Shown here in pieces: positions 18,178-30,326 of a stretch of DNA of 36,548 nucleotides; the stretch's first letter is position 1; each line of letters begins with the position of its first letter. The position numbers were made by a program, and so were the translations under genes. A model generated the notes under the pieces. The model was not told the DNA's origin and ran no database searches. It saw only the letters and a list, made by a program, of their open reading frames with translations. The stretch is from Eubacteriales bacterium (GTDB taxonomy: Bacteria; Bacillota; Clostridia; Saccharofermentanales; UBA5734). The DNA lies in assembly GCA_028685755.1 (NCBI GenBank), contig JAQUDJ010000009.1:1-36548 (forward strand). The letters run 5' to 3'.

Positions 18178-19575
18178 GTGCTTGACCGTACGCGAGCCCT
18201 CAATCAGCAGCTAATCGAAGCAAAACCTGTCATTTATTGGATGAATCGCGACATGCGCGTTGCAGATAATTGGGCGCTCATTCAAGCCCAGACCGAAGCG
18301 ACGCGCCTGAAACAACCGTTAGCTGTAGTCTTTTGTTTGCAGAAGACTTTTTTAGGCGCGACCTCGCGGCACTTTGTGTTTATGCTTGAAGGGTTAAAGC
18401 AGGTAGCCCGCGACTTGGCTCAGCTCAAAATCCCAATGCTTATCATTGAAGATGATCCCGCGCAGGCTGTTCCGATTGTGGCCGATCAATTAGGTGCGGG
18501 CTTGATCGTGTCAGATTTTTCACCGTTACGGTTGCCGCGTCAATGGCGCACTGATATGGCGAAGCAGGCAGCTGCACGATCGATTGCGATGGTTGAAGTC
18601 GACGCTCATAACATTATTCCAGTCTGGCAGGTTTCCGATAAGTTGGAATTTGCCGCACGGACAATTCGTCCGAAAATTCATCGGCAATTGGCCGCTTGGT
18701 TGACGGAATTCCCGATTCTTCTGCAACAAACAGCAGTCTGGACAGTTGAACAACAGAAAACATTAGCAGTATATGGTTGGCCTGACCGCGCGATTGAACG
18801 TTATATTGATACAAGGATTGAACGACTTGGCGGAGCGGATTCAAGGCTTTTATCTTCAGGTCCAGATGCTGGGCAAAAGCGGCTTCATACCTTTCTGCAT
18901 GAAGACTTGCCACGCTATGGCGAGCGCAACGATCCCAATAAGCCCGTTACATCGAGGCTTTCCGCGTATCTCCATTTTGGTCAACTCTCAGCACAACGGG
19001 TTGCCTTAGCAACACAGGGCATTGAGGTAACTAGCAGTGATATCAAGATTGCGATTGACGACTTTCTCGAAGAATTGATTGTTCGGCGTGAACTGTCGGA
19101 TAATTTTTGCTTTTACAATCCAGATTATGATTCATTTGCAGGATTTCCGAAGTGGGCTAAGCAAACGTTGGACGCACATCGCCATGATCCGCGCACTTAC
19201 CGTTATACCGATGAGCAGCTTTTACAAGGCCAGACCCACGATATTTTGTGGAATGCGGCGCAACACGAGCTGGTCAATCAGGGTAGCATGCCGGGCTATC
19301 TGCGGATGTATTGGGCAAAGAAATTGTTGGAATGGTGTGGTAGTCCAGAGCAGGCCATGCAAGTTGCGATTCACTTCAATGATACTTATGCACTCGATGG
19401 CCGCGACCCAAACGGATATACCGGTATTGCATGGTCGATCGGCGGTGTCCACGATCGGCCATGGGGCGAAAGAGCGGTTTTTGGAATGATTCGTTTTATG
19501 TCTTTTGATGGCTGCAAACGCAAATTTTCCATTGATGACTATGTTCGACCCACCAAGCAATTGGAATGGAGATAA
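18178..19575 (+). CDS. phr: Class II CPD photolyase (deoxyribodipyrimidine photo-lyase)
   Basis: The 465-residue flavoprotein uses blue light to split cyclobutane pyrimidine dimers. The N-terminal antenna-type domain has Y-W-M-N-R-D-M-R, the class II F-M-L-E-G-L segment and A-A-R-T-I-R-P-K-I. The C-terminal FAD-binding part ends with the class II hallmark R-D-P-N-G-Y-T-G-I-A-W-S-I-G-G followed by H-D-R-P-W-G-E-R and I-R-F-M-S. The start is a GTG with AGGAG about 11 nt upstream. It heads the light/carotenoid island, and the TudS-like gene follows after a small tandem duplication. Class II assignment is firm from these motifs. Confidence 0.94.
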   Translation: MLDRTRALNQQLIEAKPVIYWMNRDMRVADNWALIQAQTEATRLKQPLAVVFCLQKTFLGATSRHFVFMLEGLKQVARDLAQLKIPMLIIEDDPAQAVPIVADQLGAGLIVSDFSPLRLPRQWRTDMAKQAAARSIAMVEVDAHNIIPVWQVSDKLEFAARTIRPKIHRQLAAWLTEFPILLQQTAVWTVEQQKTLAVYGWPDRAIERYIDTRIERLGGADSRLLSSGPDAGQKRLHTFLHEDLPRYGERNDPNKPVTSRLSAYLHFGQLSAQRVALATQGIEVTSSDIKIAIDDFLEELIVRRELSDNFCFYNPDYDSFAGFPKWAKQTLDAHRHDPRTYRYTDEQLLQGQTHDILWNAAQHELVNQGSMPGYLRMYWAKKLLEWCGSPEQAMQVAIHFNDTYALDGRDPNGYTGIAWSIGGVHDRPWGERAVFGMIRFMSFDGCKRKFSIDDYVRPTKQLEWR

Positions 19576-19596: not shown

Positions 19597-20526
19597 ATGG
19601 ATAAAGGGCCGATTATTCTCAAAGAAAAGCCATTGATTGGCATTAGCTCATGCTGCTTTGGTTGCGCTGTCCGATACAACGGACGTTCGATGGACATGGT
19701 CAAAGGCATAGGTCGCGAAAAAGGAGATTTTCGGTGGGTTCCGGTGTGCCCCGAAAATGCTGCTGGTCTCGGGGTTCCTCGTGATCCAATCCATCTAGTT
19801 GGTGAAAATGGCCGTTCGGTTTGGCATCAAGATGGACGAGTCGTGAGTCGCGGTGGCAAAGATGTCACGGATGCCTTAAAGGCCGGTGCTCTTGAAAGTC
19901 TCGCAACATTAGCGCGCGCGAACATTAAGGTTTTTATATATATGGATGGCAGTCCGTCGTGTGGTGTTTATCGAACGACCTTGAAAAAACAGAACCGTGG
20001 CAAACCGCCAGGTATTTTTGGTGCGCTATTGGACGAAGCAGGCTACTTTTTGATCCCCGCGCTTGATTTACAAAGTCCGATCAAATGGTGGGATTGGCGC
20101 CGCCGGATGCTAGCCTTTTTGTGGCTTCAAGCTGTTCCACTGACCACGCGAGCAGAGCTTTATGATGTATGGTATCGATTGAAGTTTCTCTGTCAGGAGC
20201 TCGACAATCCATGGGCCCGCGAACAAGGTCGTTATTTAGCAAGCCTGACTGGACCACTCGATCCCGAGATAGCAACAAATTTCCGCCGCCAGGTTAGTGA
20301 TTTGTTGCGTCGTCCTTCGACTTTAAAACGAATAACCGGCAGTTTATGGAAAAATTACTGTCATCATCGCAAAGTAACCGGACGCCCTGTTGCTGACATC
20401 AATGAGCCAACCGCACTCCGCAATATCACGGCAATTGCGCGTGAGTTGATCGTCATGGAGCGAGAATCAGCAAAAGAGGGTATTTTATTTGGAACTTCAC
20501 CCGTCCTTTATTCCGGTCGGAGTTAA
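19597..20526 (+). CDS. DUF523 (TudS-like) Fe-S protein with extra C-terminal domain
   Basis: Residues about 10-155 match DUF523: S-S-C-C-F-G with C19, C-P-E with C51, P-R-D-P, and D-G-S-P-S-C-G with C122. These three cysteines are at the positions that hold the [4Fe-4S] cluster in TudS thiouracil desulfidases. The remaining ~150 residues are helical and basic. In the related RudS/YbgA proteins a C-terminal DUF1722 domain is present, but its usual motifs are not recognisable here. RudS proteins remove sulfur from 4-thiouridine in tRNA, a near-UV chromophore, and in E. coli ybgA lies next to phr. The same linkage here supports a role in the light response (inference). It is translated from the duplicated GGAG site. 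Confidence 0.78.
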   Translation: MDKGPIILKEKPLIGISSCCFGCAVRYNGRSMDMVKGIGREKGDFRWVPVCPENAAGLGVPRDPIHLVGENGRSVWHQDGRVVSRGGKDVTDALKAGALESLATLARANIKVFIYMDGSPSCGVYRTTLKKQNRGKPPGIFGALLDEAGYFLIPALDLQSPIKWWDWRRRMLAFLWLQAVPLTTRAELYDVWYRLKFLCQELDNPWAREQGRYLASLTGPLDPEIATNFRRQVSDLLRRPSTLKRITGSLWKNYCHHRKVTGRPVADINEPTALRNITAIARELIVMERESAKEGILFGTSPVLYSGRS

Positions 20527-20583: not shown

Positions 20584-22095
20584 ATGAAGAAAAAAGTCAT
20601 TGTTGTTGGGGCAGGCGTTAGTGGTTTGGCGAGCGCAATACGACTGCAGCATTTAGGGTATGATGTCGAAATCTACGAGAAGAACCCGATTATTGGCGGG
20701 CGAATGGGCTTGATCGAGTTTGATGGGTTCAAGTTTGACTTAGGGCCCACAATTTTGATGATGCCTCATATGTTCCGCGAGGTGTTTGAATTCTGTGGCC
20801 GCAATCCAGATGACTACCTTCAGATGGAACGCCTTGATCCGATTTACCAGGTTTATTTCAGCGATGGGACAACCCATGCAGCTTCCTCTGAACTCAGTAA
20901 ATTAGTCCAAACGCTCGAAGCTGTCAGTGAAGCTGACGCCCAAGGCTTCTTGCGTTACCTCAGCGATGTTTATGAGCGCTATTTGGTAGCTAAAGAGCAT
21001 TTCATTGGCCGAGGCTTTCGGACTTGGACAGACTTATTTAATCCGAAGACCTTAATGGCTGGCTTGAAATTAAAAACCTTCAATAATGCTTATGCGATGA
21101 TTTCCGAATATGTCAAAGATGAAAAACTTCGCGAGCTGTTGAGTTTCCAAACGTTATATATTGGCATTTCTCCCTTTAATGGGCCTTCGATTTATACGAT
21201 TATTCCGATGATTGAACTCGTCTTTGGGGTATGGTTCTTGAAAGGCGGGATGCGTTCACTCGTCACATCGTTTGTCACCCTTTTTGAAGAATTAGGTGGC
21301 AAGATTCATGTCAATGCGCCAGTCAGTGAAATTCGCTTTGCAGGACGCAGGGCAACCGGTGTTGTGGTTGCCGGCGAACATCATGCAGCTGATTATGTCA
21401 TAAGTACAGCTGATTTCCCCTATGCGATGAAGTCACTTCTGCCGGCAAATTTCCGCCAAGGTAAATACAAACCTGTCAATGTCGAAAAATACGATTATGC
21501 TTGTTCGTGTTTCATGCAATATATCGCCCTCGACACACGAGATTTTCCGGATCTTGATTTACATAACTTGGTGTTTTCTGAAGATTTTAGTGGTAATATC
21601 CATGATATTTTTGATGGAAATTTCCCACAGGACCCGTCAATTTATGTCTATGCACCAGCGCTGCTCGATGAAAGTCTAGCCCCTGAAGGTCAATTAGGTC
21701 TCTACGTACTCACTCCTGTACCTAATCTCAAAGAGGGATCTGCTATCGACTGGACAGACGAGTCAACACTTGCAGGTTTCCGTGAAAAAGCCTACGAAAA
21801 AATGCGCCGCATCGGACCGTTAGCGGGTTTCGAAAAACATATCCTTCGCGAAAAGGTCTACACACCACTCGATTATCAGATCGATTTCAATGCTTTCTTT
21901 GGGGCGACCTTTGGATTAAGGCCAACGTTGATGCAAAGCAATAGTTTCCGCCCGCAACCTAAAGCAACACGTTACGACAATCTATATTTTGCGGGCAGCA
22001 GCAGCCATCCCGGTGCGGGTGTCCCGATTGTCCTCATGTCAGCGCAGATCGCGGTCAATGAATTGCTGCGCGATGCGGCAGAAGCAAAAGGCTAG
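20584..22095 (+). CDS. crtN: 4,4'-diapophytoene (dehydrosqualene) desaturase CrtN
   Basis: The 503-residue FAD enzyme removes hydrogens stepwise from diapophytoene to give coloured C30 carotenoids. It has the N-terminal dinucleotide motif V-G-A-G-V-S-G-L, the G-G-R-M-G segment, F-D-L-G-P-T-I-L-M-M-P, Q-T-L-Y-I-G-I and F-G-V-W-F-L-K-G-G-M. The C-terminal signature is Y-F-A-G-S-S-S-H-P-G-A-G-V-P-I-V-L. From memory this segment order closely follows Staphylococcus aureus CrtN, and it differs from the other desaturase-like gene at 27183, which matches CrtP. A GGGAGG site precedes the ATG, and crtM starts 5 nt after its stop. Confidence 0.93.
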   Translation: MKKKVIVVGAGVSGLASAIRLQHLGYDVEIYEKNPIIGGRMGLIEFDGFKFDLGPTILMMPHMFREVFEFCGRNPDDYLQMERLDPIYQVYFSDGTTHAASSELSKLVQTLEAVSEADAQGFLRYLSDVYERYLVAKEHFIGRGFRTWTDLFNPKTLMAGLKLKTFNNAYAMISEYVKDEKLRELLSFQTLYIGISPFNGPSIYTIIPMIELVFGVWFLKGGMRSLVTSFVTLFEELGGKIHVNAPVSEIRFAGRRATGVVVAGEHHAADYVISTADFPYAMKSLLPANFRQGKYKPVNVEKYDYACSCFMQYIALDTRDFPDLDLHNLVFSEDFSGNIHDIFDGNFPQDPSIYVYAPALLDESLAPEGQLGLYVLTPVPNLKEGSAIDWTDESTLAGFREKAYEKMRRIGPLAGFEKHILREKVYTPLDYQIDFNAFFGATFGLRPTLMQSNSFRPQPKATRYDNLYFAGSSSHPGAGVPIVLMSAQIAVNELLRDAAEAKG

Positions 22096-22100
22096 ATCCC

Positions 22101-22976
22101 ATGACGTTGCAAGCGGACTTGGCCTGGTGTGAATCGATCATTCGGACCCATTCAGGGAGCTTTTATCGTGCCTTTAAACAACTACCTAAAGCGCGAGCTC
22201 AAGCCGTTTTTGCCATCTACGCATTTTGCCGGACTGCTGATGATTGTATTGATGTTGATCATGATGCAAACGCGCTCGCTCGTCTTGAATTACAGTTAGA
22301 GCAACTTGCGAACGGAAATCCGCCAGATGAGCCACTCTGGCGCGCACTCAGCTGGGCATTTTCAACCTTTGACTTAGCAATCGAGCCTTTCCGCGAGATG
22401 ATCAAAGGGCAACGTCAAGATTTAGACTTTTTGCAACCGCAAACGCGAGAAGACCTTGATAACTATTGCTATTTGGTTGCTGGAACGGTAGGCCTGATGA
22501 TTTTGCCGCTCCTTGCGCGTTCGATCAGCAGTGATACCCGTCAGGCCGCAATTGAGCTGGGCCAAGCGATGCAGATGACAAATATCTTACGAGACATTGG
22601 AGCAGATTATCGCATGGGCCGGATTTATCTGCCCATGCACGATATGGCAGAGCGGGGCATTCTTCCAGAAACCTTGGGTGATTTTCTCCCGACGGTCAAG
22701 CTCAAACAATATTGGCTCCAATTAGCGCGTGAAACACTCATGCGTTACGCCAAACTGCGCGCAAATTTGAGATTATTTGACTCAGAAGCTCGGTTACCTG
22801 TCATCTTGGCGATTCTGTATTACCGTCAAATCACTGTCATCGGGAGTAAACGGCTAGAACATATCTTACAAACCCGTGTCATCGTGCCGAATCTGACGAA
22901 GCTATGGCTGTTAATTATTTCTCGCGTACAGGTATGGCAAATGAACCACCACGATCTCATGCACTTGGGAGGATAA
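22101..22976 (+). CDS. crtM: Dehydrosqualene/phytoene synthase CrtM
   Basis: The 291-residue trans-isoprenyl diphosphate synthase joins two prenyl diphosphates head to head. Both Mg2+/diphosphate-binding Asp motifs are visible: D47-D48-C-I-D51 in the R-T-A-D-D-C-I-D segment and D165-I-G-A-D169 in N-I-L-R-D-I-G-A-D, followed by G-R-I-Y-L-P. The Y-C-Y-x-V-A-G-T-V-G helix is also present. Pairing with CrtN, CrtP, CrtO and CrtQ implies a C30 pathway, so farnesyl diphosphate is the inferred substrate. The kinase-like gene starts 1 nt after its stop, indicating tight co-expression. Confidence 0.93.
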   Translation: MTLQADLAWCESIIRTHSGSFYRAFKQLPKARAQAVFAIYAFCRTADDCIDVDHDANALARLELQLEQLANGNPPDEPLWRALSWAFSTFDLAIEPFREMIKGQRQDLDFLQPQTREDLDNYCYLVAGTVGLMILPLLARSISSDTRQAAIELGQAMQMTNILRDIGADYRMGRIYLPMHDMAERGILPETLGDFLPTVKLKQYWLQLARETLMRYAKLRANLRLFDSEARLPVILAILYYRQITVIGSKRLEHILQTRVIVPNLTKLWLLIISRVQVWQMNHHDLMHLGG

Positions 22977-22977
22977 C

Positions 22978-23631
22978 ATGCAAAATTGGATAGGGATCAT
23001 TGTTTCGTTCGCATTCGTTTTTAGTGTCATTTTCGTCGCCAAGTGGGTCGAAAAATACGGCAAGGAAGCCAGCCGCAAAACGGTCCATATTGCAGTGAGC
23101 AACTGGTGGATTTTGGCCATGATCTTTTTCAAACAACCCCTTTGGGCGGCGATTGTTCCAGCCTGTTTTGTGATTTTGAATTATATCTCTTATCGCTACC
23201 AGATTTTTGGGGCGATGGAACGGGAAGAAGATCAAGGCAAAGGCGATCTCGGTACCGTGTATTACGCGGTATCCCTGCTCGTTTTGGCGCTGCTAACTTT
23301 CGGTGACGGCAAGGACCCGATCGTCGGAGCGGTTGGCATTTTAGTTATGGGCTATGGCGATGGTTTTGCGGCACTTCTCGGCAAACGTTACCCGAAAGGC
23401 AAGTATCGGATTTTCGGTGCAACAAAAAGCATGACGGGAAACATCACGATGTTTAGTGCCTCGTTTGCCGTGTTGCTGATTCTCTTCGCGACCACTGGCC
23501 AAGCCACGATTCTTTTGCCTGCGCTGGTGATTGCTGTATTGGCAACCGTTATCGAAGCGGTGACACCGCTTGGCCTGGATAATCTATCCGTGCCGCTTTT
23601 AGCTTCACTGGCTTTTGCTGTGATTTTTTAA
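22978..23631 (+). CDS. Phytol/dolichol-kinase-like membrane protein (CTP-dependent polyprenol kinase family)
   Basis: The 217-residue protein has about seven membrane segments. It carries the motifs of the SEC59/VTE5-type kinase family: R-K-T-V-H (33-37), E-D-Q-G-K-G-D-L-G-T-V-Y-Y, M-G-Y-G-D-G-F-A-A-L-L-G-K (about 124-136), K-S-M-T-G-N, and the terminal E-A-V-T-P-L-G-L-D-N-L (193-203). Members phosphorylate long-chain isoprenoid alcohols such as phytol, farnesol or dolichol using CTP. It is fused to the crt operon: a 1-nt gap after crtM with GGGAGG overlapping the crtM end, and the DUF92 gene 84 nt downstream. Phosphorylation of farnesol or a similar alcohol for CrtM is inferred; lipid-carrier recycling is the alternative. 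Confidence 0.82.
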   Translation: MQNWIGIIVSFAFVFSVIFVAKWVEKYGKEASRKTVHIAVSNWWILAMIFFKQPLWAAIVPACFVILNYISYRYQIFGAMEREEDQGKGDLGTVYYAVSLLVLALLTFGDGKDPIVGAVGILVMGYGDGFAALLGKRYPKGKYRIFGATKSMTGNITMFSASFAVLLILFATTGQATILLPALVIAVLATVIEAVTPLGLDNLSVPLLASLAFAVIF

Positions 23632-23715
23632 TGAGTTCGGACTAAACAGAACACTGATGAGATTTAAGCATAAATGGCGGAACTGATTACATAAGATGAA
23701 CAGGGGATATCGACG

Positions 23716-24591
23716 ATGGGCGCATTTGAATTTTTTGGAATAACAGGAAATCTATTAGCTGGAGCCGTGTTACTCGTGAGCTTCATCGTCTCATTTTTAG
23801 CCTGGAAACGTCGTTCTTTGACAGGGGCAGCCGCCATTGTAGCTGCAGTCTTCGCGGTAGTCTATTATCTGACTGGCGGACTCAAAATGGTCTTTCTTCT
23901 TTTACTCTTTTTCCTAAGTTCAACCTTGCTTACCCATTATAAAAAGCATGATAAGCACAGTATCGAAAAAGATTTGCATGAGAAAAAGGGCGCGCGGGAT
24001 ACCTTTCAGGTTATTGCTAACGGCGGCCCAGCCCTCCTGATGAGTTTGCTGTCTGTACTATTTCAAAGCAACTTATTCTATAAAGAAATGTTCCAACTCG
24101 CTGCTGCCGGTGCATTAGCCGCGAGTAATGCGGATACGTGGGCCTCAGAAATTGGCGTACTCAGCCATAAGCGCCCCGTTTACATCCTGTCGCGCAAACC
24201 AGTCCAAACTGGATTATCCGGTGGTGTCACGCGTTTGGGAACCTTAGCCGCCCTTGCAGGCGGCGTTTTCATAGCACTGGTTTTTGGTTTTCTAGCAGTC
24301 ATCGAGGCTCTGACAACTTTCGCAGCCATCAATTGGCTCATTCTCGCCATGTACGTGCTCTTAATTGCGGTAACGGGCTTTCTTGGCTCGATAATCGATA
24401 GTATTCTCGGCGAAACCTTACAGGCTAAATATATACACTACCAGCATGCTCATTTAACCGAAAAAGCCCACGAACACGGCATCGCTAACATTTTAAAAAA
24501 GGGTTGGCGCTGGATGACGAATGACTGGGTCAATTTGATCAGCTCAATGAGCGCGGCTACTATTTTGCTGACGACACTGATATTGATTTGA
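23716..24591 (+). CDS. DUF92 (VTE6/TMEM19-like) membrane protein, candidate isoprenyl-phosphate kinase
   Basis: The 291-residue protein has about six or seven membrane segments and the DUF92 signatures: A-R-D-T-F-Q-V-I-A-N-G-G (about 93-104), A-S-N-A-D-T-W-A-S-E-I-G (136-147), Q-T-G-L-S-G-G-V-T-R-L-G-T, and G-S-I-I-D-S-I-L-G-E-T. The plant member VTE6 is a phytyl-phosphate kinase acting after the phytol kinase VTE5. A VTE5-like gene lies immediately upstream, so the pair has the composition of a two-step alcohol-to-diphosphate salvage route. The biochemical role of most bacterial DUF92 proteins is unproven, so the activity here is inference. An AGGGGAT site precedes the ATG. Confidence 0.82.
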   Translation: MGAFEFFGITGNLLAGAVLLVSFIVSFLAWKRRSLTGAAAIVAAVFAVVYYLTGGLKMVFLLLLFFLSSTLLTHYKKHDKHSIEKDLHEKKGARDTFQVIANGGPALLMSLLSVLFQSNLFYKEMFQLAAAGALAASNADTWASEIGVLSHKRPVYILSRKPVQTGLSGGVTRLGTLAALAGGVFIALVFGFLAVIEALTTFAAINWLILAMYVLLIAVTGFLGSIIDSILGETLQAKYIHYQHAHLTEKAHEHGIANILKKGWRWMTNDWVNLISSMSAATILLTTLILI

Positions 24592-24609: not shown

Positions 24610-25296
24610 ATGGCTTTTACACCCCTGTCCGACTTACGAACTAGCTATCAACACGCGCTCGTTGCCCTCGACAAAGCCACTTGTGTCCGCTTGATTCAGG
24701 ACGCGTTGTCTAGTGCAAGCATTGACGTTATCGAACTCTATCAGGATGTGCTTTCCCCGGCACTCAACGAAAGTGTTGAAACCGAGATGGGTAAGGATAA
24801 TTCGATCTGGAAAGAACATGTTCGCAGTGAAATTACGCGGACGGTGATTGAGTCGTGTTACCCGTTTGTATTGAAAGCTGCGGCAAAAACATTAGCTGCG
24901 CGCCGCAACAAATCAGCTGGTAAAGTCATGATCGTCTTGCCTGCCGAAGAATTTCACGAGCTTGGCGCCCGGATGGGTGCAGACTTTTTTCAAATACTGG
25001 GATTCGAGGCACTTTTTGTTGGCAGCAATACGCCTTGCGAGGCCATCATGAACGGTATTTCATATTTTCAACCGGATTACATCGATATCCACGTCGTCAA
25101 TTACTACAACCTTTTCAAAGCCAAAGAATTGATCGCAGCGATTAAGCAGATCAACCCAGCTATCAAAATCCTTGCGAGCGGGTATGCGTTCACGCAAGAT
25201 CCGGACCAATCGGTCAAGCTTGGCCCGATTTGTCTGATCAATTCATACGCCGACATCGCCTCGCTCGTAGGTGAACAGCTAGGTGATCTACCATGA
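24610..25296 (+). CDS. Cobalamin-binding-domain protein lacking a DNA-binding domain
   Basis: The 228-residue protein has a helical cap (about 1-95, B12-binding-2-like) and a flavodoxin-like B12 fold (about 103-225). The cobalamin lower-ligand motif D-x-H-x-x-G appears as E114-F-H116-E-L-G119, so the histidine is kept but Asp is replaced by Glu. Later loops include the S-x-N-T-P-C-E region and A-S-G-Y-A-F. In CarH/LitR light sensors the cap has W-x9-E-H; here E69-H70 is present, but the Trp position is E59 and the next residue, the CarH upper ligand, is M60. There is no MerR or other helix-turn-helix. It lies 18 nt after the DUF92 gene, and its ATGA overlaps the ABC permease. A regulator or photosensor is inferred; a corrinoid enzyme subunit is less likely. 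Confidence 0.78.
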   Translation: MAFTPLSDLRTSYQHALVALDKATCVRLIQDALSSASIDVIELYQDVLSPALNESVETEMGKDNSIWKEHVRSEITRTVIESCYPFVLKAAAKTLAARRNKSAGKVMIVLPAEEFHELGARMGADFFQILGFEALFVGSNTPCEAIMNGISYFQPDYIDIHVVNYYNLFKAKELIAAIKQINPAIKILASGYAFTQDPDQSVKLGPICLINSYADIASLVGEQLGDLP

Positions 25297-26459
25297 GAAT
25301 TGCTTTTAAAATTGCCTCACGATTTTTACTTTCCAACAAGGGTCAGACCATCCTGATCGCCTTAGGAATTGCGATTGGGATATCTGTCCAGATATTTATT
25401 GGCTCACTGATTAGTGGCTTGCAGAAAAGTCTGATTGATACAACGATCGGTAACGCCTCGCAAATCACGATTGTTTCCGATGCGGATGATCGCTTGATCA
25501 ATAATTACGAAGCGCTAGCACGATCTGCCAAACGGCAGGATTTGCGACTGACAGCTGTTTCACCAGTACTCGACCAACCGGGCTTGATCATCAACGATGA
25601 ACGGTCAGAATCGATCTTGCTGCGGGGCTTTGATTTCAATCGAGCGGAAGCGATCTACGAATTTTCCCAACGAATTTTAGTTGGCAAATTACCCGTTCGC
25701 GATAACCAGGCCATGATTGGGATCGATCTAGCCCAAGAACTCGGGGCATCTGCGGGAGATACCATCGAAGTAACGGTCCTCAATGGTCAGAAGCGAACCT
25801 ATCTCGTCACGGGTATTTTTGATCTCAAAGTTCAGACGGTGAATAAAACCTGGTTTTTGACAACCCTTTCATCGGTCCAAGATCTTTTTGCCAAAGACGG
25901 GCAGGTCACCTCAATTGAAATGCAAATCGACCCGGCCATTGCCTTTGAGTCTGATTTGGTTGCCGCCGATTTACTGCCGATCATTACCGATCCGGAACTC
26001 AAGATCACCAACTGGAAAGCGCAAAATGAATCATTATTGTCTGGGCTCAATGGCCAAAGTGTTTCAAGTTATATGATCCAATTTTTTGTAGTCGTTTCAG
26101 TTGTCCTTGGCATTGCTAGTGTCTTGGCCATCTCGGTGCTCCAAAAATCAAAGCAGATCGGGATTCTAAAAGCAATGGGTATTCGTTCTCGCCAATCAAG
26201 CTTGATTTTCCTGTTCCAAGGCTTGATTCTGGGCTTGCTCGGCGGCATTTTGGGTTTGGGGATTGGCTTAGGCCTTGCCTATAGCTTTACTCAATTCGCA
26301 GTGAGGCCAGATGGAACACCTGTTGTCGCCCTTTACATTGATCAGAATTTTTTGATCCTGTCGTTTTTCCTTGCAGTCGTCTCGTCGACGCTGGCCGCAC
26401 TTGTACCGGCGCGCAAATCAGCAAAACTAGATCCAATTGAGGTCATCCGCAATGGCTAA
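25293..26459 (+). CDS. ABC transporter permease, MacB/LolE-FtsX type
   Basis: The 388-residue protein has the classic layout: an N-terminal membrane helix (about 18-40), a large extracytoplasmic domain (about 42-255, MacB-type periplasmic core), then three C-terminal helices (about 262-285, 305-330 and 350-372) containing I-G-I-L-K-A-M-G, the FtsX-family coupling motif, and ending P-I-E-V-I-R. These permeases move lipids, lipoproteins, peptides or drugs by a mechanotransmission mechanism. It overlaps the B12-domain gene by 4 nt (ATGA) and the ATPase gene by 8 nt, so the three are translationally coupled. Only one permease gene is present, suggesting a homodimer. Transport of a carotenoid or isoprenoid lipid is inference from context. 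Confidence 0.85.
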   Translation: MRIAFKIASRFLLSNKGQTILIALGIAIGISVQIFIGSLISGLQKSLIDTTIGNASQITIVSDADDRLINNYEALARSAKRQDLRLTAVSPVLDQPGLIINDERSESILLRGFDFNRAEAIYEFSQRILVGKLPVRDNQAMIGIDLAQELGASAGDTIEVTVLNGQKRTYLVTGIFDLKVQTVNKTWFLTTLSSVQDLFAKDGQVTSIEMQIDPAIAFESDLVAADLLPIITDPELKITNWKAQNESLLSGLNGQSVSSYMIQFFVVVSVVLGIASVLAISVLQKSKQIGILKAMGIRSRQSSLIFLFQGLILGLLGGILGLGIGLGLAYSFTQFAVRPDGTPVVALYIDQNFLILSFFLAVVSSTLAALVPARKSAKLDPIEVIRNG

Positions 26460-27177
26460 GCAGATTATCAAGACACCAGCCGCTATAGGCGAACCAGTTA
26501 TCATCCTCGATAAAATCAATAAAATATATGGTGGCAGTGTAACAACACAAGTCCTTTATGACATTGATCTCGCATTTAAGTCGGGCACATTCAATGGCAT
26601 AATTGGCCAATCCGGCAGTGGTAAATCGACTTTGATGAACATCATGGGTACGCTTGACCGGCCAACAACTGGCACGATCACAATCAACGGCCGTCGCACC
26701 GAAAACATGACCGCTAATCAACTCGCTGACTTACGCAATGAGACCATTGGCTTTATTTTTCAGTTCCATTATCTCTTGCCAGAGTTTACGGCAATCGAAA
26801 ATGTCCTCATGCCTTATTTAATTAAATATGGCGCAGCGAGTCGGGAAATCAAAGCACGCGCTGCTGAATTGATCGACCTTGTTGGCTTAACAAAAGTTAA
26901 AAACAATCTGGCAACTAAAATGTCGGGCGGGCAACAGCAGCGTACCGCCATTGCCCGTGCTTTGATTATGAATCCAGCGATCATTTTAGCAGATGAGCCG
27001 ACCGGCAACTTGGATTCAGACACAACCGAAACGGTTTATCAAATTATGCGCGATATCAACGAACGGTTTAAGACAACGTTCATCATCATCACGCATGACC
27101 GCCATATCGCTGAAAAAACGGACCGGATAATTGAAATAAAAGATGGCCGAATCAGCCTCGATTTGGCACGCCGGTAA
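26452..27177 (+). CDS. ABC transporter ATPase, LolD/MacB type
   Basis: The 241-residue protein has Walker [10 protein letters not shown] (52-60), the Q-loop region F-I-F-Q-F-H-Y-L-L, the signature M-S-G-G-Q-Q-Q-R and Walker [13 protein letters not shown], followed by the I-T-H-D switch His. The LolD-type sequence [16 protein letters not shown]-x-E-N-V is present. The ATG at 26452 overlaps the permease stop and is preceded by GAGGT 9 nt away; an in-frame TTG at 26437 is less likely. It powers the permease just upstream. Its stop lies only 5 nt from the stop of the convergent crtP, with no terminator visible. Confidence 0.92.
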
Positions 27178-27182
27178 AGCGT

Positions 27183-28676
27183 TTATTTTTCACGGTCGTT
27201 GATCAGTTGACCAACTTGCTGACCACTTTTAACAACCATTGGCATGCCACCACCTGGGTTAACCGTACCGCCGACGAAATAGAGATTATCAAAAAATTCG
27301 CTTTGTTTTGGGTGCTTAAAGCCGTGGTTAGCTTTGCGGTCGGAAACCACTCCATAAATCGCGCCGCGATCTGAGTAATAAGTTGATTCTATGTCAACGG
27401 GCGTCCAGAAATCTTCGGTGACAATATGTTGGCGTAGATCGGTGAGCCCCATCCGTTCGAGTTTATCGAGCACCCGTTCCTTCAGATCGAGATAATCTTG
27501 GGCAGTTGCGGGCTGTTTTTGGATGTAGGGAATATGGGGTAAGATTTTGAGATTTTCATGTCCGGGTAAGGCTTGCGCGGGATCTGTTTTATTGACATTG
27601 ACGACATAAAGCGTTGGATCGTCAGGCAAAAGATGGCGATTGAAGACCTTGTCAAAATGTTCTCGCGGGTGCTGTGAAAAGAAGAAATTATGGTGACGCA
27701 ACTGGGGATAGGTGCGGTTGACGCCGAGATGCAATACGATGCCGGAACAGGCAGGCTCCATTTTTTTCAAAGGCTTCATCGCCTTTTGATCGAAGCCAAG
27801 CAATTTTTCATAGGCAGGGATAACTTCCATATTGGAAACAAAATAATCTGCAGTCTGACGTGTACCATCCGCCAGGTGAGCGGCGACAACTTGCCCTCGT
27901 TGATTGGTTTCAAGGCGAACAACTTCAGCGTTCGGACCCGTTACAAACGACACCCCGATTTCCTCAGCGAGCTGACGCAACCCCAAGGCGATTTTGTTCA
28001 TACCGCCCGGTACATACCAAACGCCCTGTGCATGCTGCATGTATATCATCATGTTTAAAACAGCCGGAGCATTGTAGGGTGATGAACCGACGTATTTGAT
28101 AAAATAGGCCAACATATCGCGAAAATTCTGATTCTTGACACGCTTCGCGATGGCCCCGTACATGGATGAAAAGTAATCAAAACCGATGACAGAATTAACG
28201 AGACCATGTGTCTTGAAAACATCACGTGTGCGATCTAGTCCCACGCGGCCGAGATACCCATCCTCTGTCAGGTCATATAAACCCCGAGCATAATCAAGAA
28301 ATTTTTGATAACCCATCATATCGGCTTCGGTCAAACTGCTATTAGCTTTGGCCATTTGGGCTAGATCGCCAAATAGGTCGAGCACCAAACCGTCTGGGAA
28401 AAAGCTACGCCATTCATGTTCAACACGACTGATCTGAATATAATCAGCCATCGCTTTGCCACTCCGCGTAAAGTGTTCTTCAAAAATTTGTGGCATGGTC
28501 AGAATTGATGGCCCGAGATCAAAAGTAAATCCGTCTTGTGTTTTGAGATTGAGTTTGCCACCAATGTGCGTGTTTTTTTCAAAAACGGTGACAGCAAACC
28601 CATGTTGGGCGAGGGTGATTGCACTTGAGACACCGCCGAGGCCACCACCAATGACAACTACTGATTTTCCGTTCAT
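27183..28676 (-). CDS. crtP: 4,4'-diaponeurosporene oxidase CrtP
   Basis: The 497-residue FAD enzyme of the CrtI/CrtN superfamily oxidises the terminal methyl of diaponeurosporene in staphyloxanthin biosynthesis. Motifs are V-I-G-G-G-L-G-G-V-S-S-A-I, N-T-H-I-G-G-K, F-D-L-G-P-S-I-L-T-M-P, E-W-R-S-F-F-P-D-G, Y-F-I-K-Y-V-G-S-S-x-Y-N-A-P-A-V-L, L-P-D-D-P-T-L-Y-V-V-N-x-N-K-T-D, D-R-G-A-I-Y-G-V and V-G-G-T-V-N-P-G-G-G-M-P-M-V. From memory these follow S. aureus CrtP closely and differ from CrtN. The ATG at 28676 is chosen because GAGGGGGT lies just upstream and the first 46 codons of the longer frame belong to the crtO coding region. It overlaps the crtO stop (ATGA). Last gene of the minus-strand crt operon. 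Confidence 0.92.
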   Translation of the reverse strand: MNGKSVVVIGGGLGGVSSAITLAQHGFAVTVFEKNTHIGGKLNLKTQDGFTFDLGPSILTMPQIFEEHFTRSGKAMADYIQISRVEHEWRSFFPDGLVLDLFGDLAQMAKANSSLTEADMMGYQKFLDYARGLYDLTEDGYLGRVGLDRTRDVFKTHGLVNSVIGFDYFSSMYGAIAKRVKNQNFRDMLAYFIKYVGSSPYNAPAVLNMMIYMQHAQGVWYVPGGMNKIALGLRQLAEEIGVSFVTGPNAEVVRLETNQRGQVVAAHLADGTRQTADYFVSNMEVIPAYEKLLGFDQKAMKPLKKMEPACSGIVLHLGVNRTYPQLRHHNFFFSQHPREHFDKVFNRHLLPDDPTLYVVNVNKTDPAQALPGHENLKILPHIPYIQKQPATAQDYLDLKERVLDKLERMGLTDLRQHIVTEDFWTPVDIESTYYSDRGAIYGVVSDRKANHGFKHPKQSEFFDNLYFVGGTVNPGGGMPMVVKSGQQVGQLINDREK

Positions 28677-29173
28677 AAAACAGACCCCCTCAACTGAATT
28701 CGTTTGATAAGTCGCGAAAAGCGTGGTCGATTGTAACGCTGTAAGAGAATAAACGGTAAATTGGCAACAAGCGCATAAAGTATCATGAACCATCCTGCCC
28801 ACGGTGGGTTCCACAGGAAAAATAATGGTGCGGGTAAAATGGCCAACCAGTGTGTCAATTCAGCGCGCCTTGCTTCTAAAACAAAGCGATCAAGATTGCG
28901 AGCATCCACCGAAACCAGTCGCTTTTTAGCATAGCCATGTTTAAAAAAACCTGCACCATCTGGCAGATGCTCTTTCCATTTTTTCAAATGAAAGATTTCA
29001 TCCCATAGCCGGCCGTCACGCTCCCAATTCCGGATCCGAAAGAGCGCGTTATCCGTCGCGAACCACTGATTTGGCATGTGCAAAGTCAACCAGGCGAAAC
29101 CTAGATGAATCAATAGCCAAGCTAAAAAATCAAACATGATTGTCAATAATATTGACAGGTCCCCAATTTGCAC
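28673..29173 (-). CDS. crtO: Glycosyl-4,4'-diaponeurosporenoate acyltransferase-like CrtO
   Basis: The 166-residue integral membrane protein is close in length to staphylococcal CrtO (about 165). It has the family core R-N-W-E-R-D-G-R-L-W-D, then K-K-W-K-E-H-L-P-D-G-A-G-F-F, and a C-terminal half with two membrane segments (W-F-M-I-L-Y-A-L-V-A-N-L-P-F) ending in L-Q-R-Y-N-R-P-R. It would add a fatty acyl group to the carotenoid glycoside, the last step of staphyloxanthin synthesis. The start is GTG at 29173 with GGAGG 5 nt upstream. The crtQ stop lies 13 nt upstream, and its own stop overlaps the crtP start by 4 nt. Confidence 0.88.
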   Translation of the reverse strand: MQIGDLSILLTIMFDFLAWLLIHLGFAWLTLHMPNQWFATDNALFRIRNWERDGRLWDEIFHLKKWKEHLPDGAGFFKHGYAKKRLVSVDARNLDRFVLEARRAELTHWLAILPAPLFFLWNPPWAGWFMILYALVANLPFILLQRYNRPRFSRLIKRIQLRGSVL

Positions 29174-29186
29174 ATCTACCTCCGAG

Positions 29187-30320
29187 TCAAACGTCGATCG
29201 AACGGCCGCGCCACTTCACTTGCCGCCGGACTTTAGTCAGATAGGTTGACCAGCCAAAAAGAATCGCGAAAAACATAAACAAAAAAGGGTAAGCCATCTG
29301 TAAAAGGATATGAAATCGGCCAACCCGACCAGATATCCAGATTACTTCAACCTGCATGGCGAATACTGTGACTAATGTGCCGAAAATCCACATTAGATCG
29401 CCCCCTTTTATCGCAACAACCAAACCTAGCACGGATGAAAAACCACTAGTAATCCATAAAATAATCAAAGTCATGACGAACGGGTGCGTCGCCGCGGATG
29501 CTGTGCCAAAGCTTTTAGTCCATCCTTCAAACAGTTGATGAAAACCTTCCGGATACATGCGAAAGGAGAGGCAATTGCGTCCACTTAAACAAGCCACAGG
29601 GAGATTGGCAGCCGCATACAATTGGCCTAAGGCCAGATCATCCATCACCGCGCCGTGCACCGCTTGATGCCCACCGATTGATAGATATTCACCGCGTGAA
29701 CAAACCATGCAAGGACCAAATGCGCCAGCGCCTAGTAAGCGATCCCCCAGAACTGTAAAGCGATTCATACCGGCAAATACTATGATGTTAAACAAGGTGG
29801 AAAAACTTTCATAGAATTTTTGCACGCGGTGATAGGGTTGAACTGAGAGTAAACCACGCGCCCCAGTTGATTGGTAAGTCGTTAGCAAATCACGCAAACT
29901 GTTTGGGTGATCTAGCCACGTGTCGGCATCGAGAAAAATCAGGGTGTTCCCCTGAGCGACTTTCGCCCCAGACCAGCACGCACGAGATTTTCCGACATAA
30001 CCAGGCAGGACCGGGTCAGCTAAGACAACAGTAGCCCCTAAATCAGCCGCAAGTTGAGCCGTTTGATCGGTTGAATGATCATTAATGACAATAATTTCAA
30101 ATGGACGATAAGTCTGATGACGCAAGGATTTCAGTAACGGTGATATACGACGTCCTTCGTTATAAGCCGGAATCAGGATGCTAACCGTGAAAGGATCGAG
30201 CGAAACGGGTTGCTGACGGGTCTTGATGCCTGGAATTTTCCAAAGCATGAGCAAGCCAGCTACCAAACCGCCAATAGTCAAAACGAGCCCAAAAGCTTGT
30301 AAAACAATGAGCAATTGCAA
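29187..30320 (-). CDS. crtQ: 4,4'-diaponeurosporenoate glycosyltransferase CrtQ
   Basis: The ~377-residue GT2 family glycosyltransferase has an N-terminal membrane helix (about 5-27), V-S-I-L-I-P-A-Y-N-E-G (about 46-56), I-I-V-I-N-D-H-S-T-D, the nucleotide-sugar metal motif L-D-A-D-T-W, a later acceptor-region motif M-D-D-L-A-L-G, and three C-terminal helices. It would glucosylate diaponeurosporenoic acid in the membrane. The strong AAGGAGGA site (30327-30334) abuts a GTG at 30326, so that codon is too close; the TTG at 30320, 6 nt away, is the better start. First gene of the crtQ-crtO-crtP operon. No aldehyde dehydrogenase gene for the intermediate oxidation is in the window. Confidence 0.9.
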   Translation of the reverse strand: MQLLIVLQAFGLVLTIGGLVAGLLMLWKIPGIKTRQQPVSLDPFTVSILIPAYNEGRRISPLLKSLRHQTYRPFEIIVINDHSTDQTAQLAADLGATVVLADPVLPGYVGKSRACWSGAKVAQGNTLIFLDADTWLDHPNSLRDLLTTYQSTGARGLLSVQPYHRVQKFYESFSTLFNIIVFAGMNRFTVLGDRLLGAGAFGPCMVCSRGEYLSIGGHQAVHGAVMDDLALGQLYAAANLPVACLSGRNCLSFRMYPEGFHQLFEGWTKSFGTASAATHPFVMTLIILWITSGFSSVLGLVVAIKGGDLMWIFGTLVTVFAMQVEVIWISGRVGRFHILLQMAYPFLFMFFAILFGWSTYLTKVRRQVKWRGRSIDV

Positions 30321-30326
30321 CTTCAC

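Follow-up and report, generated by a model that had tools for sequence, protein, structure and literature searches.

In the window, the 36,548-nucleotide stretch of DNA analysed here (contig JAQUDJ010000009.1, from an Eubacteriales bacterium genome of 2.04 Mb in 56 contigs), the gene for the C30 carotenoid enzyme CrtM is followed directly by two genes whose products likely belong to the prenol and prenyl-phosphate kinases: VTE5L, a VTE5/SEC59-like protein, and a VTE6-like protein of the DUF92 family. We propose, with a probability of roughly 0.55, that the two proteins act as a two-step, membrane-bound prenol kinase/prenyl-phosphate kinase salvage module that supplies FPP to CrtM; catalysis itself, farnesol as the substrate, delivery of the product to CrtM and flux into pigment are the parts of this proposal that we infer. 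The tie between a SEC59-DUF92 module and C30 carotenoid operons appears to be undescribed, and since our search of the open-access literature found no paper joining a VTE5L- or DUF92-type protein with crtM or diapophytoene, what is presented here is a salvage-type module already known elsewhere, found recurrently in a carotenoid setting that is new.

The operon lies on the forward strand, preceded on that strand by the genes of a DNA photolyase (18178-19575; PF00875, E 1.3e-32) and a DUF523 (2-thiouracil desulfurase family) protein (19597-20526; PF04463), both of which are kept in the genus. It opens with a crtN-type (4,4'-diapophytoene) desaturase of the CrtI family (20584-22095; TIGR02734, E 4e-131) and a crtM-type dehydrosqualene (C30) synthase (22101-22976; PF00494, E 6.8e-63), and continues with VTE5L (22978-23631; 217 residues, ATG start), a candidate integral membrane prenol kinase by its motifs, AF2 model, CdsA fold match and recurrence with crtM, and with the VTE6/COG1836-like DUF92 gene (23716-24591; 291 residues; PF01940, E 3.6e-67), whose product is a candidate prenyl-phosphate kinase. 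A B12-binding protein devoid of a DNA-binding domain (24610-25296; PF02310 and PF02607, with a weak CarH match) is encoded in the same operon, and its tail consists of an FtsX/MacB-type ABC permease (25293-26459; PF02687/PF12704) and an ABC transporter ATPase (26452-27177; PF00005), these three also being kept in the genus. From crtN onward the genes are separated by 5, 1, 84 and 18 nt and then overlap, and both reading frames of the pair stand as the initial annotation had reported them, a kinase-like frame beginning 1 nt after the crtM stop and a DUF92 gene coming next. Translational coupling of crtM and VTE5L is plausible, because the last bases of crtM include a Shine-Dalgarno-like GGGAGG (22967-22972, forward strand) placed 5 nt ahead of the start codon of VTE5L; the junctions between the two genes overlap or measure 0-1 nt in many other lineages as well. 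A scan for promoters and terminators gave no more sites than shuffled sequences. Across the genus the carotenoid genes are flanked by the photolyase and the B12-binding protein; the operon is possibly light-responsive, with the B12-binding protein serving as a CarH/LitR-like sensor minus its DNA-binding part.

The gene order is widely repeated. Four same-genus relatives keep crtN-crtM-VTE5L-DUF92 together with the B12-binding, FtsX and ABC genes, and the photolyase lies upstream in three of them, the contig of the fourth ending before that point; crtN precedes crtM in these relatives and in most of the loci that join crtM to the pair. In two genomes of another genus of the family, VTE5L and DUF92 are fused and directly follow crtM. 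In one case (L050:3207-4645, genome G027) the fused pair reads as two overlapping frames, whether through a frameshift, a sequencing error or the presence of two genes. A scan for VTE5L with one genome per species yielded 295 relatives, and in 21 of the best 80, whose context was examined, VTE5L comes immediately after a crtM read in the same direction (gap -8 to +52 nt); DUF92 is the next gene in all 20 of these whose contig continues. Acetobacterium wieringae, A. dehalogenans, A. bakii, Eubacterium callanderi and Soehngenia longivitae are among the carriers, as are metagenome-assembled genomes (MAGs) under the labels Erysipelotrichaceae, Petrotoga, Thermotogae and Treponema. The arrangement is not due to chance, because it recurs across several families and, by labels, at least three phyla, including Thermotogota and Spirochaetota MAGs. 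Among 393 Clostridia-level genomes, PF00494 is found in 8 and PF01940 in 12, all 8 of the former carrying both, with DUF92 a few hundred bases downstream of the squalene/phytoene-synthase gene on the same strand; the Fisher p of 4e-14 ignores relatedness and overstates the independent evidence, since the 8 genomes represent 4 genera and 3 families. The association is weaker within the order, where 8 genomes have both genes, 5 only crtM and 2 only DUF92 (p 3e-7). A failure of the pair to recur with crtMN in relatives, which the initial annotation had named as evidence against its own proposal, is thus not what the neighbourhood survey found.

The three genes also resemble one another in their histories. 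When the trees of crtM, VTE5L and DUF92 are compared over the 21 loci linked to crtM, their pairwise distances correlate with r 0.84-0.86 (0.84 for crtM with VTE5L and 0.84 for crtM with DUF92; Mantel p at most 0.0005), a correlation that is also expected from shared species history. Both kinase-like genes are under purifying selection, with dN/dS mostly about 0.07-0.15 (about 0.07-0.18 for VTE5L among relatives) and similar values for crtM; one very close DUF92 pair, with few changes, gives an outlying 0.45. On the VTE5L tree the crtM-linked label changes 8 times, and because well-supported branches force at least 3 of these changes, the link was gained, lost or moved on more than one occasion.

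The pair is found apart from crtM as well. PF00494 is absent in 13 of 14 genomes that carry only the pair, which therefore has uses beyond CrtM, and 5 crtM genomes of the order lack DUF92; since both kinds of genome exist, neither partner needs the other. Such stand-alone pairs favour a rather unlikely reading, in which phytol, geranylgeraniol or farnesol, whether scavenged or released, is converted to the prenyl diphosphate mainly for some other consumer, such as quinone or polyprenyl synthesis, and the link to crtM reflects shared isoprenoid or photo-oxidative stress regulation rather than channelling. Consistent with it are a locus (L112:1286-4161) where a photolyase comes immediately after VTE5L-DUF92, on a contig that lacks crtM and in a genome that lacks PF00494, and the occurrence in the window genome of a second polyprenyl synthase whose neighbours are a menA-like and a cydA-like gene (names read from translations). 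However, the recurrent immediate and often overlapping junction with crtM, and the fused pairs found directly after it, point more to CrtM as the consumer. The window genome also carries ispA beside dxs, so that its FPP is made de novo, and salvage as the sole source of FPP was accordingly rejected. Two further loci show other arrangements: in a complete Acetobacterium-like genome (L174:5539-7423) DUF92 and a cyclase-family gene occupy the usual place with crtN, crtM and VTE5L missing there, as if these three had been lost together, and at L176:2301-4626 a fused VTE5L-DUF92 adjoins a conserved unknown protein, with an apparent non-ribosomal peptide synthetase farther on.

VTE5L occurs without DUF92 in 45 of the best 80 loci, which form one fully supported group of the tree. 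In 33 of these 45, the gene that opens the MEP isoprenoid pathway, dxs (identified by PF13292), lies downstream on the same strand, within 100 nt in 28; crtM adjoins none of the 45 (p 5e-10), and DUF92 was found nowhere in the 15 kinase-only genomes tested. The loci beside dxs (L093, L111, L103 and 30 more) belong to small-genome, gut-type Clostridia. This linkage suggests that the kinase-only VTE5L phosphorylates prenols in connection with the MEP pathway. Since crtM and dxs are two independent settings in each of which VTE5L adjoins an isoprenoid gene, the linkage also lends independent support to an isoprenoid role. The kinase-only group could also be taken to favour polyprenol-carrier recycling, by which VTE5L would re-phosphorylate undecaprenol, or a polyprenol resembling dolichol, to serve as a carrier for the cell wall or glycans, with DUF92 as an auxiliary, a reading to which the membership of dolichol kinase in the SEC59 family and the linkage of archaeal DUF92 genes to uppS (PMC5898192) lend some weight. 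It is nonetheless quite improbable: carriers need only a monophosphate, whereas DUF92 is present whenever crtM adjoins VTE5L and missing in the kinase-only clade, and the crtM-linked pairs have no recurrent cell-wall neighbours. DUF92 would thus be the partner present where the neighbouring enzyme consumes a diphosphate, as a kinase followed by a prenyl-phosphate kinase predicts; that it is there whenever CrtM is, and that CrtM needs a diphosphate, fits the role of second kinase.

Taken alone, the VTE5L of the window has no Pfam or NCBIfam match, and weak CTP_transf_1 (PF01148) matches are found in 5 of 56 members of its family (best 4e-5). The family carries the motifs RK..H, GDG, KS..G and DN, which are those of the VTE5/SEC59 family, and in its alignment D128 is invariant and D201 is kept in more than 90% of members. 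The AF2 model (pLDDT 90.9) finds its top PDB fold match, a weak one, in the CDP-DAG synthetase CdsA (E 0.2, probability 0.84). The phytol/dolichol-kinase-like identity first given to the protein is therefore backed indirectly, by the motifs, the weak matches within the family and the fold, with no family match of its own. By profile comparison VTE5L shares a common family with a second SEC59-like protein type of the same order (hhalign 99.7%), whose SEC59-like domain is without a Pfam assignment. At two loci (L055:8725-10245 and L057:2872-4380) a TauE-type transporter domain (PF01925) is fused to a SEC59-like C-terminal domain, and at three others (L053, L056 and L058) the SEC59-like gene adjoins a gene for another conserved small membrane protein.

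The DUF92 protein, the only one in the window genome, is a clear family member, as the initial annotation had it: its PF01940 match is full-length, at 226.8 bits vs a cut-off of 27.5, and it scores below the TIGR00297 cut-off. Invariant residues among 34 sequences include R94, D140 and D228, and from the description in PMC5898192 the two aspartates would be those of the metal centre. Its AF2 model (pLDDT 94.0) likewise matches CdsA best, and weakly (E 0.03); the structures matched by both proteins are 4q2e and 4q2g, with probability 0.84-0.90, E 0.03-0.2 and TM about 0.3-0.4. These matches agree with the placement of DUF92 and SEC59 with the cytidylyltransferases (PMC5898192). Direct homology between VTE5L and DUF92 was not detected by profile comparison (probability 0.9%), and sequence searches of the two proteins and their profiles against solved structures returned nothing useful. 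The shared CdsA fold, together with the precedent of yeast Dgk1, a diacylglycerol kinase of the SEC59 family, could indicate a role outside isoprenoid metabolism, as a CTP-dependent lipid (diacylglycerol) kinase or a CDP-lipid enzyme of the CdsA/Dgk1 superfamily; isoprenoid neighbours in both the crtM and the dxs setting, and the activity of the DUF92 homologue VTE6 as a phytyl-phosphate kinase, make this very unlikely.

The best PDB match of CrtM is 5iys (recorded as a phytoene synthase), which we take to be the CrtM-type enzyme of Enterococcus hirae; the S. aureus CrtM is among the matches too. At the counterparts of F26 and W38 of S. aureus CrtM, a residue reading of the structure-match alignment gives Phe. 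From these nearest structures and residues, the CrtM encoded next to crtN is predicted to be of the C30 type. Alongside, on the reverse strand, lie a second CrtN/CrtP-like oxidase-desaturase of uncertain start (27183-28673; TIGR02734, E 6e-105), a crtO glycosyl-4,4'-diaponeurosporenoate acyltransferase (28673-29173; PF18927, E 2.6e-33) and a crtQ-like glycosyltransferase (29187-30326), the weakest assignment of the three, with CruG/HpnB-like glycosyltransferase matches under curated cut-offs. This cassette (27183-30326) stands between the ABC gene and xpt in the window species only, and is a variable add-on, because the same-genus relatives whose contigs cover the site have no crtP/O/Q there. 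A role of the pair among the staphyloxanthin tail genes was rejected, as the relatives keep the pair and not the cassette. Of the initial reading, the VTE5-like/VTE6-like pairing and its membership of a crtNM operon are upheld by recurrence, fusion and co-evolution, and the isoprenoid role by the linkage to dxs; "staphyloxanthin-type" needs trimming, for the pair goes with crtN-crtM and not with crtP/O/Q. Action of the pair on a pigment or a pigment-derived alcohol, such as a terminal carotenol, to give phosphorylated carotenoid intermediates is highly improbable: the position after crtM and a tocopherol-cyclase-family gene nearby in Acetobacterium and some others would suit it, but the pair does not track crtP/O/Q and exists without crtM, and that gene family, present in 67 of 393 Clostridia genomes, is widespread and unspecific. 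Acetobacterium, an Erysipelotrichaceae-type MAG and Pleomorphochaeta provide the loci (L063:9559-10536, L074:29-1051 and L135:6631-7593) at which tocopherol-cyclase-family genes (PF14249) stand next to or near the pair. As a general component of a three-gene "vitamin E-like" module, PF14249 was rejected given the frequency of that gene and the location of the window genome's own copy on another contig.

In the salvage module that we favour, VTE5L would phosphorylate a prenol that is either released from prenyl diphosphates or taken up, with farnesol or another short one like it as the likeliest substrate; DUF92 would add the second phosphate, with CTP as donor by analogy with plant VTE5/VTE6; and CrtM would condense the resulting FPP to dehydrosqualene for CrtN. 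Salvage would supplement the de novo FPP from IspA without replacing it. The arrangement, which is found in many anaerobic bacteria, suggests that those with the pair beside crtM may reuse an isoprenoid alcohol, for instance farnesol, to make pigment, by which lipid turnover would be tied to pigment. A broader version can be put forward tentatively: a dedicated farnesol-to-FPP salvage route in anaerobes of several phyla, with both missing bacterial kinases identified and wired by operon and by fusion to C30 carotenoids, might let prenols that are recycled or scavenged serve as the raw material of pigment, possibly when light or oxygen causes stress. The operon offers concrete candidate genes for both salvage steps in non-photosynthetic bacteria, and it has both a product that can be followed by its colour and hosts that are in cultivation (Eubacterium, Acetobacterium).

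Among known systems, the crtOPQMN cluster of S. aureus shares with the window crtM, crtN and the crtP/O/Q set, here on the opposite strand; we know of no kinase pair in that cluster. VTE5L resembles the plant and cyanobacterial phytol kinase VTE5 and the farnesol kinase FOLK in being a small integral membrane protein with the same motifs, a DUF92 partner and an isoprenoid gene context. It differs in being too diverged for a family match, in its location in a C30 carotenoid operon rather than a tocopherol/chlorophyll setting, and in that its activity is predicted. The plant and cyanobacterial VTE5/FOLK and plant VTE6 enzymes carry out prenol and prenyl-phosphate phosphorylation with CTP, activities that E. 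coli does not have (PMC9782597), and VTE6/COG1836 was first linked to phytol metabolism through plant-prokaryote comparative genomics (PMC3223725). The DUF92 protein shares with Arabidopsis phytyl-phosphate kinase VTE6 the full PF01940 match and a VTE5/SEC59-like partner, but is a candidate enzyme of a bacterial subfamily adjoining crtM. In E. limosum, CrtM and CrtN produce 4,4'-diaponeurosporene when expressed in E. coli without the pair, and the organism itself produces no carotenoid anaerobically (PMC11611032); its close relative E. callanderi has crtN-crtM-VTE5L-DUF92, and the two downstream genes go unmentioned in the text of that paper. The operon may offer a clue to the puzzle that obligate anaerobes, E. 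limosum for one, retain a functional crtMN yet form no pigment in pure anaerobic culture. Finally, a SEC59-DUF92 fusion has been described in archaea (Methanosarcina Mbar_A3310, arCOG02245; PMC5898192); it represents the same two-domain module, which is also fused in relatives of the window, but the archaeal DUF92 genes are linked to uppS, whereas the bacterial ones reported here are linked to crtN-crtM.
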